The position numbers and the translations under genes are program-made. A model generated the notes under the pieces. It was not told where the DNA came from. It searched no databases and saw only the letters and a list, made by a program, of their open reading frames with translations. This document shows, piece by piece, positions 41,005-45,440 of a stretch of DNA of 64,000 bases (position 1 is its first letter; every line of letters begins with the position of its first letter). This stretch comes from Collinsella bouchesdurhonensis (GTDB taxonomy: Bacteria > Actinomycetota > Coriobacteriia > Coriobacteriales > Coriobacteriaceae): NCBI RefSeq assembly GCF_900155365.1, contig NZ_LT699739.1, positions 304,333-368,332 of the forward strand, given 5' to 3'.

Positions 41005-41247
41005 CTATTCTACGGCAGATTCGGAATGCGAATCGTCCTTCGCCGAAGTCTCTTCAAGTTGAGCGGCTTCGCGATCGGATAGCTCAAAGTTATCCACCAT
41101 CTCGACTGCCTTAGAGCCCAAAGCGATAGCCTCGTCAAAAAGATCGAGGCTATGCTCAAGAGAAGCGTCTTTCGCGCGCACAGCAGCGACGATATCGTCC
41201 ATGCGCGCCATAACGTCATCAAACGTATGGACTGTTGACTCAGACAT
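41005..41247 (-). CDS. xseB: Exodeoxyribonuclease VII small subunit
   Basis: Small helical partner of XseA in the single-strand exonuclease. The 80-residue product has the family pattern FDDVMARMDDIVAAVRAKDASLEHSLDLFDEAIALG (split here by reading: the core LEHSLDLFDEAI lies at about 34-45) and an acidic tail. The large subunit gene xseA, usually directly upstream, is not in this cluster: xseB follows nusB by two bases. Confidence 0.88.
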   Translation of the reverse strand: MSESTVHTFDDVMARMDDIVAAVRAKDASLEHSLDLFDEAIALGSKAVEMVDNFELSDREAAQLEETSAKDDSHSESAVE

Positions 41248-41249
41248 GG

Positions 41250-41783
41250 TTAGTCGTCCATATCCGTCGTATCGAGGACAATGGAATCGTCGCTGTCAGT
41301 CTCATCGGCCGACTCATCCACACGAGGAGTGAGGGCCGCGTCAAAGGCGGCATCGGCTGGCAGCTGAGTTTGACGAGCGATACGACCGAGAACGCCGTTG
41401 ACGAACTTCGCAGACTCATCGGTTCCGTATGCCTTGGCAATCTCCACCGCCTCATTGATCACGACAGCAGCATCCAGGCGATCGCTCGGATCGGCACAGC
41501 GAAGTTCAAAAACAGCGATGCGCAGCAAATTCCTGTCGGAAGCGGGCATGCGATTAAGATCCCAGTTCTTGGAGCACGCAACGAGAGCAGAATCGATCTC
41601 GTCGATATGCTCATATGCACCGCGAGCAAGCTCAACGGCATAATCGTCCAAGGGACCCTTGGACAGAAGATAGTCGCCAGCGAGAACAGCATCAACGGGC
41701 TTATCGAGAGCCTCGGCCTGGAACAGAATCTGAAGAGCCTGGCTACGCGCAAGCGTACGGCCGCGATTGACTTTAGAGCTCAA
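41250..41783 (-). CDS. nusB: Transcription antitermination protein NusB
   Basis: Binds boxA RNA with S10 and supports rRNA antitermination. The 177-residue protein is the all-helical NusB fold: RTLARSQALQILFQAEALD at the start, MPASDRNLLRIAVFELR near 80 and AVVINEAVEIAKAYGTDESAKFVNGVLG near 105, then an acidic Asp/Ser-rich tail of about 35 residues that is longer than usual. The start is TTG at 41783 with AAGGAG six bases upstream, three bases after the Asp23-family gene. Confidence 0.94.
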   Translation of the reverse strand: MSSKVNRGRTLARSQALQILFQAEALDKPVDAVLAGDYLLSKGPLDDYAVELARGAYEHIDEIDSALVACSKNWDLNRMPASDRNLLRIAVFELRCADPSDRLDAAVVINEAVEIAKAYGTDESAKFVNGVLGRIARQTQLPADAAFDAALTPRVDESADETDSDDSIVLDTTDMDD

Positions 41784-41786
41784 AAG

Positions 41787-42149
41787 CTACTCCTTGGGGA
41801 ATACCAGGTTGTCGATGCAAACATCGACAGCACAAACAGCAACGCCTACCTGCGCATCAATCGCCTTGGAAACGGCGACGCGCACAGCCTCGGCAAGCTT
41901 TTTAAACGGATAGCCAAAAAATACGGTCAAGCGGACGACGATATGAAGAGCGTCGTCTTCGACCGTAGCTTCGACCGCAGGAAGAGACGGAGAAGAAGTC
42001 TTGGACGAGAACATCGAAACAAGGTTTGCAGCAAGGTCGTTATTACCGACCGAGGCAACACCCTCAATGTCAGCAAGGGAACGAACGACTATTGTGGTCA
42101 GAACGTCCGGTGCGATAGCGATGCCATCAATCTTGATCTCTTGACTCAT
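41787..42149 (-). CDS. Asp23/Gls24 family envelope-stress protein
   Basis: The 120-residue protein matches the Asp23/Gls24 family: residues begin with KIDGIAIAPDVLTTIVVRSLADIEGVASVG, followed by the conserved later stretch LTVFFGYPFKKLAEAVRVAVSKAI. Family members are linked to alkaline or cell-envelope stress, and one (the relative of AmaP/Asp23 in staphylococci) lines the membrane. The ATG at 42149 has GGGTGAG upstream, so it is preferred over a GTG three codons earlier. Its place between accC and nusB is widely conserved in Firmicutes and Coriobacteriia. Confidence 0.88.
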   Translation of the reverse strand: MSQEIKIDGIAIAPDVLTTIVVRSLADIEGVASVGNNDLAANLVSMFSSKTSSPSLPAVEATVEDDALHIVVRLTVFFGYPFKKLAEAVRVAVSKAIDAQVGVAVCAVDVCIDNLVFPKE

Positions 42150-42164
42150 ATGACTCACCCATTT

Positions 42165-43520
42165 CTAGCAAAGATACTCGGGCATATGCTCAGGAATGAA
42201 ATCAGTGTACACGATTCCAGACGCAAACTGAGCGTTTCGCACAACATCCCGATGGAATGGAAGCGTTGTGGCGATTCCCTCGATCTCGCACTCATCAAGA
42301 GCGCGGCGAGCACGGGCAAGAGCCTGTGCACGGTCGGCACCCCAAACGATGATCTTGGCTACAAGAGAATCATACGTAGGTGGAATCGTATAGCCCTCAT
42401 ATACATGCGTCTCCACGCGCACGCCGGGTCCACCAGGCAAACGAAGGTGCTTGATGGTACCAGGACAAGGCCTGAATCCATGTGCAGGATCCTCTGCATT
42501 AATACGGAACTCGAACGCGTGGCCGGAAGGCACCGTAATGCCCCCATCGGGAACCGTCATGGGCTCACCGGATGCGATACGCAGCTGCTCACACACAAGA
42601 TCGGTACGCGTGATCTCCTCGGTCACCGGATGTTCCACTTGGATGCGGGTATTCATCTCCATAAAGTAGAAGCTGCCATCCTCATCGAGGAGAAACTCTA
42701 TGGTACCGGCATTGACGTAGCCAACTTCACGGACAGCGGTAATGGCGACCTTGCACATCTGGGCGCGCTGCTCATCGGAAAGCGCCGGGCTCGGAGCCTC
42801 CTCAACAAGCTTTTGATGACGGCGCTGAACGGAGCAATCGCGCTCGCAAAGGGCAGCAGCATGACCAAAAGAATCGGCCAGAACCTGAATCTCAACGTGG
42901 CGAGGGCGCAAGATGAGCTTTTCGAGATACACCTCATCGTTGCCAAAGGCGACACGCGCTTCGGAACGGGCGGCGTCGAATTCCTTCTGAAGATCTGCCG
43001 GATCATGCACCTCGCGCATACCCTTGCCGCCGCCGCCAGCGGACGCCTTGATGAGAACGGGATACCCGACAGCCTCCGCAAAGGCGCGCGCTTGCTCGAC
43101 GGACTCAACGGGGCCGTCGCTGCCAGGAACGGTAGGGACACCTGCAGCCTTCATGGTCTGCTTGGCATTGCTCTTCTCGCCCATCGCATCGATAACCTCG
43201 GGAGCGGGACCTATGAACACCAGATCGTTGTCGGCACAGGCGCGTGCAAATTCGGCGTTCTCGGACAAAAAGCCATAACCGGGATGAACCGCTTCGCATC
43301 CGCGCGAGACTGCAGCTCCGATGATGCGAGCATAGTCGAGATAGCTCTTGGCAGAAGGAGCCGGTCCAATGCAAACGCGCTCGTCAGCCTCAAGGACAGC
43401 TGTAGTATTCGTATCCGCCTCGGAATACGCAATGCAGCTTTTCACGCCTAGATCTTTGCAAGCACGAACGATACGCAACGCAATCTCGCCGCGGTTGGCG
43501 ATCAAAATCTTCTTGAACAT
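42165..43520 (-). CDS. accC: Biotin carboxylase
   Basis: Carboxylates the biotin of the carrier protein using ATP and bicarbonate. The 451-residue protein has the ATP-grasp enzyme layout: FKKILIANRGEIALRIVRAC at the start, GYGFLSENAEFA, the glycine loop SAGGGGKGMREV near 165, and FYFMEMNTRIQVEHPVTEEI near 285, all intact. It lies 48 bases after the carboxyltransferase-biotin-carrier fusion, so the pair together contains all three functions of a pyruvate-type carboxylase, and the carrier may also serve acetyl-CoA carboxylase. Confidence 0.96.
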   Translation of the reverse strand: MFKKILIANRGEIALRIVRACKDLGVKSCIAYSEADTNTTAVLEADERVCIGPAPSAKSYLDYARIIGAAVSRGCEAVHPGYGFLSENAEFARACADNDLVFIGPAPEVIDAMGEKSNAKQTMKAAGVPTVPGSDGPVESVEQARAFAEAVGYPVLIKASAGGGGKGMREVHDPADLQKEFDAARSEARVAFGNDEVYLEKLILRPRHVEIQVLADSFGHAAALCERDCSVQRRHQKLVEEAPSPALSDEQRAQMCKVAITAVREVGYVNAGTIEFLLDEDGSFYFMEMNTRIQVEHPVTEEITRTDLVCEQLRIASGEPMTVPDGGITVPSGHAFEFRINAEDPAHGFRPCPGTIKHLRLPGGPGVRVETHVYEGYTIPPTYDSLVAKIIVWGADRAQALARARRALDECEIEGIATTLPFHRDVVRNAQFASGIVYTDFIPEHMPEYLC

Positions 43521-43568: not shown

Positions 43569-45440
43569 CTATTTCGAAGTAATAGGCTCCAGATAGAACA
43601 TCACCTGGCCGTACTCGACAGCATCGCCATTCTCGACGCACACCTCGCGAATCGTACCCATCTCGTCGGCAGCGATTTCGTTCATGAGCTTCATAGCTTC
43701 AACGATGCACAAGGTGGAGCCAGCCATGACCTCATCGCCCACGGCGACAAAGTCGGGATCGTCGGGGCTAGGCGCCGAATAGAACGTGCCGACCATGGGG
43801 CTCTTAACGGGCTTCCAACTCAAAGGACGCTTGGCGTCATCGGCCTCGGACTGCTCGGCGGGAGCAGCAGCCGCGGGAGGAGCGGCGGGAGCGGCCTGTG
43901 CGGCTGCGAGATTCGCCGCAAGGGCAACCTCAGGCTTACGAACGGTGATTTCGCTGCCGGCATCCTTGATGCTGATCTCGCCGATCTTGCTCTCCTCAAC
44001 AGCGCGAATAAGCTCGCGAATCTGATTCATATCCACGTAATCATCCTCCTTGGTCTGACTTGCGTCCTCATCGTGCAAGAACTCAACCGATTCGTTCGAG
44101 GGATGCTTGGACAAAAAGGCCCTAGCCTCCACCGGGAACATTGCATACATCAAGACATCTTCATCGCTATGTGCTAGCTCGCCGATCTCCTCCGCACACT
44201 GAGCAAAGGTCGGCGGTTCGTCGAGTGCCAACTCATTTCCAATCGTGGCGAGGTCGACGTTTTCGCCAAAGACCTTATGCATAATCTCAGAGTTAAACGG
44301 CGCGGGAGCATGACCATACGCACCAAGCAGATAGTCGCGCATCTCTTTGGACACGATGCTCCAGCGCTTGCCAGTAAGCACGTTCATGACAGCCTGGGTA
44401 CCGACGATTTGGCTCATAGGAGTAACGAGCGGCGGGAAACCGACCTCAGCGCGAACGCGCGGAATTTCAGCCACGACATCTTCCAGACGGTCAGTCGCAT
44501 GCTGGACCTCAAGCTGGCTCATGAGGTTGCTCATCATGCCGCCGGGAATCTGATGCTTATAGACCTGCATGTGAATGAGCGAGGAGACGCCGCGCTTATA
44601 GTGGCCGCGACGGCGCACCTCCTCCCAGTAGTTCGCGATCTCAAAGAGAAGGTTAAGATCGAATCCGGTATCGAAAGCAGATTCCTTGAAGGAAGCCGCG
44701 ACCATCTCAACTGCAGGATGGGAATTGCCCGAAGCAAGCGGAGCAGAAGCCGTATCGACAATCGAGGCGCCTGCTTCGGCGCCCTTGATAAAGCACGAAG
44801 GGGCCATGCCGCCAACATAGTGACTATGCAGATGGATCGGCACGTCAACAGCAGCACGCAAAGCATTCACAAGCTTCTCGGTGCGATACGGCGTGAGCAG
44901 GCCGGCCATATCCTTGATGCAGATGGTGTCTGCACCGAGCTCGGCAAGCTTACAGGCATAGTCGACATAGGAATCAAGGGTATGGACCGGGCTGGTCGTG
45001 TAAGAAATGGCAGGCTCAAAATGCGCACCGCAGGCTTTTACGGCACGGGCGCAATCGCGCATGTTATCGATATCGTTCAAAGCGTCGAAGACACGGAAGA
45101 CATCGATGCCGTTCTTGTGCGCACAGGCAATGAAGCGGTCGACAACATCGGAGGAATAATGGCGATAGCCAACGAGGTTCTGACCGCGCACGAGCATCGC
45201 GAGCGGAGTCTTGGGCGTAGCGGCTTTTATCTGACGAAGACGGTCCCAAGGGTTCTCATCTAGAAACCTCAGGCACGAATCGAACGTGGCACCGCCCCAC
45301 GCCTCGATGGCCCAATATCCAACTTCGTCCATCTTGGGCAAGATGGGAAGGATATCGCCGATAGTCATGCGCGTCGCCCAGAGCGACTGCTGTCCGTCAC
45401 GGATGGTCGTGTCCATCACGCGGAGGCGTTTATCAGCCAT
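43569..45440 (-). CDS. Carboxyltransferase (PycB/OadA type) fused to AccB-type biotin carrier
   Basis: The 623-residue chain joins two modules. Residues 1-460 are a carboxyltransferase of the pyruvate carboxylase subunit B / oxaloacetate decarboxylase alpha class: [16 protein letters not shown] near 10, [12 protein letters not shown] near 180 and the metal-binding [11 protein letters not shown] near 208. Residues 470-623 are a complete AccB-like carrier with its own N-terminal region ([19 protein letters not shown]), Ala/Pro linker, [13 protein letters not shown] thumb-type loop and biotin site EAMKLMN (Lys584). AccB normally occupies exactly this place before accC. An AAGGAGG site followed by in-frame GTG at 44036 could give a separate AccB. 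Confidence 0.93.
44034..44049 (-). promoter_or_regulatory. Internal ribosome binding site and GTG for a free AccB
   Basis: On the minus strand AAGGAGG is followed after eight bases by an in-frame GTG (codon 469 of the fusion; 44034-44036), then ATG two codons on (44030). Initiation would yield a product of about 153-155 residues, the length of a normal AccB. Confidence 0.55.

Follow-up and report, generated by a model that had tools for sequence, protein, structure and literature searches.

A nested AccB behind a conserved internal start codon in the pycB gene of Coriobacteriia

Introduction

AccB is normally needed to make malonyl-CoA, and the AccB of bacterial acetyl-CoA carboxylase (ACC), represented by the model TIGR00531, is found next to accC. 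In the two-subunit pyruvate carboxylase (PycA/PycB; a 5ks8 chain is pyruvate carboxylase subunit beta), the carboxyltransferase, the PYC_OADA domain and the carrier are in one chain and the biotin carboxylase is in another. A related domain order is found in the alpha subunit (OadA) of Na+-pumping oxaloacetate decarboxylase (OAD). Both the two-subunit enzyme and internal in-frame initiation are already known; in Cas11b genes and those of two-product endolysins, a second start gives a shorter product with the same C-terminus.

We have analyzed a stretch of 64,000 nucleotides from Collinsella bouchesdurhonensis (hereafter the window), in which these features are brought together. As in PycB, carboxyltransferase, PYC_OADA and carrier are in one chain, but here a full AccB, N-terminal region included, forms the carrier and has an internal start. 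As in ACC, the AccB gives a full-length match above the cut-off and lies next to accC; unlike an AccB with a separate gene, it is in frame inside pycB and has the stop codon in common with it. In contrast to the Cas11b and endolysin cases, the predicted short product would serve a second, different enzyme. In the open-licence PMC literature, searched by titles and abstracts, no report of an AccB nested in pycB was found.

Data Sources

The following data have been used for the present analysis: 149 genomes of Coriobacteriia (the class sample), with 100 fetched loci having a readable codon at the junction between the carboxyltransferase part and AccB, 98 of these with upstream sequence; 135 aligned junctions, which comprise the class loci and individually named loci, some loci being counted twice; and a tree of 113 tips. 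L190 and L191, which start at a contig edge where the fused state is not visible, were excluded from the 98 upstream-readable loci, and three rows were dropped, namely L071 and L193, which lack a junction residue, and L192, which gave no carrier match.

Structure of the Fusion Gene

The features of the locus, with window coordinates, are as follows.

43569..45440, minus strand: PycB-AccB fusion ORF, 623 aa, 623 codons (ORF call, Pfam, NCBIfam)
44631..45425, minus strand: HMGL-like carboxyltransferase domain, residues 6-270 (Pfam PF00682)
44061..44564, minus strand: PYC_OADA conserved carboxylase domain, residues 293-460 (Pfam PF02436)
44045..44051, minus strand: internal Shine-Dalgarno (SD) sequence AAGGAGG, 8 bases 5' of GTG (sequence)
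44034..44036, minus strand: conserved internal start codon GTG, fusion residue 469 (sequence and comparison across loci)
43569..44036, minus strand: nested AccB, 155 aa, stop codon common with the fusion (TIGR00531; free product predicted)
43590..43811, minus strand: biotinyl domain (Biotin_lipoyl), residues 544-617 (Pfam PF00364)
43689..43691, minus strand: lysine codon of EAMK, Lys584, predicted to be biotinylated (sequence)
42165..43520, minus strand: biotin carboxylase accC/pycA, 451 aa, next gene downstream (TIGR00514, 650.6 bits, cut-off 626.5)

An earlier reading made from the sequence only had described a 623-residue protein in which a PycB carboxyltransferase is joined to a complete AccB, N-terminal region included, and this description was borne out by profile searches and alignment. 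The NCBIfam model for PycB, PRK09282, spans fusion residues 4-618 (737 bits, cut-off 402), and TIGR00531 spans residues 470-618 (152.9 bits, cut-off 115.2). The 155-residue piece beginning at the GTG gave 158.8 bits with the TIGR00531 equivalog, again above 115.2, and since the match extends over model positions 1-155 of 156, the piece includes the N-terminal region proper to AccB. The C-terminal part of the fusion could also be aligned with E. coli AccB (4hr7 chain B) from its first residues to its end, and 5ks8 did not appear among the matches that the C-terminal 208 residues of the fusion gave at E 1e-10. The EAMK that holds Lys584 is taken by us to be the biotinylation motif. With a PycB-type carboxyltransferase, PYC_OADA and a carrier in one chain and a separate biotin carboxylase in the adjacent gene, the locus has the composition of a two-subunit pyruvate carboxylase.

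In comparison with OadA, the fusion scores below the equivalog cut-off (643.1 vs 756.5 bits) and is paired with a biotin carboxylase. A search for OAD beta gave no match in 14 of 18 genomes examined, the genome of the window being one of the 14, and a sodium-pump reading was rejected for this genome on that ground. A role as oxaloacetate decarboxylase appears unlikely from these comparisons.

After accC, the gene order continues with an Asp23-family gene (Pfam) and an ORF at 41250-41783, which from its look is presumably nusB. A 738-codon ORF lies antisense to accC (window 41235-43451, plus strand) and probably results from codon usage.

Conservation of the Internal Start

At the junction, the minus strand reads AAGGAGG (44051-44045), 8 bases, GTG (44036-44034), GAT and ATG (44030), just as the sequence-only reading had reported. 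Over the 135 aligned loci, the junction codon is GTG in 97, ATG in 31, TTG in 2 and a non-start codon in 5 (L068, with GTA, and L074, L075, L076, and L077). Valine at the junction is encoded by GTG in 84 of 84 class loci, as compared with 38% of the valine codons elsewhere in the same genes and with a GTG share that peaks at 72% among 44 other conserved valine columns of the class, and methionine at the junction is encoded by ATG in 16 of 16. In the 98 class loci whose upstream sequence could be read, the junction codon is without exception GTG or ATG and stands behind an SD core (GGAGG in 74 and GAGG in 24), and in the control such a core preceded 14.9% of 4577 other in-frame start codons. 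Codon choice within the SD sequence is similarly restricted: the arginine at this position is AGG or AGA in 43 of 48 class loci (8.3% elsewhere), and the glutamate next to it is GAG in 97 of 98. When 598 columns were ranked by synonymous identity beyond codon usage, the start column was first and the glutamate column 8th. Judged by SD hybridization alone, the junction is the best SD-start pair of the ORF in 46 of the 98 loci and among the top two in 77, and the strength of the median junction is reached by 1.3% of 4619 other in-frame start codons.

These comparisons strongly support that the internal start codon and its SD sequence have been kept at the nucleotide level beyond what the protein sequence needs. 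A conserved ribosome-binding site with a start codon, by which internal initiation is recognized, lies inside this ORF. Of the two starts proposed in the earlier reading, only GTG 44036 is conserved in this alignment; the codon aligned with ATG 44030 is mostly one for Val or Ile and encodes Met in just 2 of 100 class loci. Two further candidates were tried and set aside: AT-rich codons after the start, as an additional signal, were not exceptional, and a second patch of excess synonymous identity (residues 274-287, window 44580-44640, minus strand) consists mainly of preferred CGC and AAG codons.

AccB Genes in Related Genomes

In 80 of the 100 class genomes with the carrier, there is one TIGR00531 match at E 1e-10, which is the carrier itself. 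An accD match is present in 65 of these 80, and there the nested carrier is the only AccB found; no accD was found in the other 15, several of which are incomplete. In all 10 sole-AccB genomes checked for it, accA lies beside accD, as it does in two free-accB genomes taken for comparison. Of the 65, 61 gave one accC match and four gave two or three partial matches; a single accC would be expected if two enzymes used it in common. When biotinyl domains were searched for with PF00364 at E 0.001, no other match was found in 15 of the 65, and the second matches in 41 further genomes (40 among the 100) are weak, 20-29 bits, except in G036 and G052, which have 74-codon frames of 55 bits; further matches in 11 of the 65 were counted without individual listing. 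A search of 14 genomes from outside the class that have the internal start, completeness not stated, gave a single biotinyl domain at E 1e-6 in seven, six of these with accD.

Thirteen genomes of the class sample, all of family f2, gave no PF00364, accD or accC match; these microbes may be without ACC and take up fatty acids.

Proposed Mechanism

We consider it likely that two proteins come from one gene: PycB-AccB, as part of a two-subunit pyruvate carboxylase, and a free AccB of 155 residues, which would serve ACC in the sole-AccB relatives. Initiation at 45440 would give the full-length PycB-AccB, the carboxyltransferase and carrier of pyruvate carboxylase, which would combine with the biotin carboxylase encoded downstream (PycA/AccC) into the two-subunit enzyme. 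From an independent start at GTG 44036, preceded by AAGGAGG, the free AccB would be made from the same messenger and with the same C-terminus. In the sole-AccB relatives, free AccB and the single AccC would serve ACC together with AccD and AccA, so that pyruvate and acetyl-CoA carboxylation would have one biotin carboxylase and one biotinyl domain in common, and the ratio of the two products would be set by the two initiation sites. The idea of dual products had been put forward in the earlier reading, and it gains support from the nucleotide-level conservation of start and SD and from the sole AccB beside accD in 65 of 100 genomes.

In its general form, the proposal is that accB occurs solely as a gene nested in frame in pycB in much of Coriobacteriia, as well as in some other Actinomycetota and Clostridia, and that an internal ribosome-binding site apportions a single biotinyl domain and a single biotin carboxylase to pyruvate carboxylase and ACC, translation thereby setting the balance between anaplerosis and fatty-acid synthesis; we favor this with moderate confidence. 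If this is true, a separate gene for AccB is missing from much of a bacterial class, including some gut Eggerthellaceae, and an annotation showing just a pyruvate carboxylase subunit would make ACC look incomplete. The nested gene would also tie two central carboxylases to one biotin carboxylase.

The Genome of the Window

The genome of C. bouchesdurhonensis (G000; 1.88 Mb, 15 contigs, rated 99.77% complete) was matched by PF00364 in three places: the fusion, a second AccB (170-codon frame, contig C14) and a weak match in an efflux-adaptor-like ORF. In the C14 operon (L006), the second accB is flanked on one side by an acpP-like gene and on the other by accC, accD, accA and genes like fabH, fabK and fabD, the names acpP, fabH, fabK and fabD being our assumption from their sequences. 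Unlike in the 65 relatives, therefore, the nested AccB is not the sole AccB beside accD and accA, and sharing one carrier is unneeded in this genome because of the separate accB-accC-accD-accA operon. The use of one biotin carboxylase for both carboxylations, which the sequence-only reading had suggested for this locus, is not supported for G000, where a second accB and accC lie with accD and accA; the gene content that it would predict is seen in 65 of 100 relatives, most of which have a single accC. That reading had also stated that a separate accB elsewhere, together with an internal site not conserved in relatives, would speak against it; the former half is what the search of G000 returned, with accC-accD-accA on another contig, while the site itself proved to be conserved in 98 of 98 class loci.

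The free form from the nested start, which G000 may still make despite its ACC operon, would here be redundant or have another role. It is possible, though on balance unlikely, that the site in G000 is a relic or redundant, ACC using the operon AccB and the nested start no longer mattering there. The complete cluster on C14 is in agreement with this, as is the distribution of the fusion, a full-length match having been found in 1 of 19 sampled genomes of the genus group g1, namely G000 itself (among the others, nine have a 46-48% carboxyltransferase match alone, eight a carrier match alone and one none). On the other hand, AAGGAGG and GTG are intact in G000 despite its long branch (0.49 changes per column). 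The fusion gene groups with those of its own family with a support of 99, as vertical inheritance would predict. Horizontal acquisition from Eggerthellaceae, suspected because the matches of the fusion are at 66-69% in Eggerthellaceae and at 63-66% in the family of G000, is not supported.

Genomes with a Second AccB

More than one AccB was found in 20 of the 100 carrier genomes: twelve of family f3, G116, and seven in which accB, accC, and accD are together (G000, G018, G027, G050, G066, G017, and G035). We take f3 to be Eggerthellaceae, since, over the stretch that was compared, two members have the same proteins as Enteroscipio rubneri and Adlercreutzia caecimuris. The second accB-accC pair of f3, examined in 6 of the 12 genomes (L206-L211), lies in all six beside CT_A_B and CT_C_D genes, presumably of the PxpB/PxpC type, with D-glutamate cyclase or LamB/YcsF genes nearby in five; the stretches around the six pairs gave no match to accD or accA. 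These neighbors, together with the lack of an accD or accA match in 6 of 6 loci, rule against an ACC pair, and the pair probably serves another carboxylase. In G116, the other biotinyl domain adjoins an OAD beta gene and would be its second TIGR00531 match.

An 844-codon AccD-AccA fusion was noticed in one f3 genome (L195, 6897-9431, minus strand), with an N-terminal stretch matching PF00289, the model of the biotin carboxylase N-terminal domain (28.4 bits, cut-off 25.5), and accD frames of 784-996 codons in other f3 genomes may resemble it. A separate pycB beside a free accB, as an ancestral arrangement, was also looked for, and was rejected: no carboxyltransferase match at E 1e-10 was found in 44 of 44 free-AccB loci with flanks of up to 4 kb.

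Among the seven genomes with accB, accC and accD together, the internal site is intact in all six where the SD is readable. Since it is retained in genomes with their own accB-accC-accD, ACC supply alone fails to explain its retention, and either the free AccB still has a function in them or the site is slow to decay. These six genomes are also consistent with the reading that free AccB is made but is everywhere a part of pyruvate carboxylase, as an assembly or regulatory subunit, and not the ACC carrier. Internal products that join the long product are known, and by analogy with Cas11 and truncated endolysin products free AccB might behave likewise. We regard this as improbable, because it leaves the source of malonyl-CoA unexplained where accA and accD are present but no other AccB was found, unless the full-length protein serves ACC.

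Loci without the Start Codon

The junction codon on the 113-tip tree has undergone 6 changes, always among GTG, ATG, and TTG, and 0 switches between start and non-start codons, a count which holds only for the clade left once the five start-less loci were set aside (L068, L074, L075, and L077 by removal, L076 because its sequence was too short for the tree). On the same tree, 51 control valine columns have 11-33 such switches (median 24). An SD core precedes the junction in 112 of the 113 tips, the exception in the range tested being L055.

Such a pattern is hardly expected if only the full-length fusion is made, its tethered carrier serving both enzymes, and the start-like codon is structural or a coincidence. 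The ORF is indeed open through the junction, and acid- and lysine-rich stretches yield SD-like sequences elsewhere in it too. But the junction valine is always GTG in the class, changes among Val, Met, and Leu pass through start codons only, the SD arginines use otherwise rare AGR codons, and five distant relatives have a non-start codon there, showing that the residue is not structurally fixed; we regard this explanation as very improbable. SD-like sequences inside genes can slow ribosomes, and the conserved element might act as a pause or coupling signal and not as a start, but this would not need a start codon at exactly the first AccB position and is the least credible of the explanations considered.

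The start codon is absent in L068 and in the distant Actinomycetota L074-L077. A search of four of these five genomes showed additional biotin-carrier frames in each, one being a separate frame of 153 codons; these few and distant sequences fit a loss of the internal start where another carrier exists.
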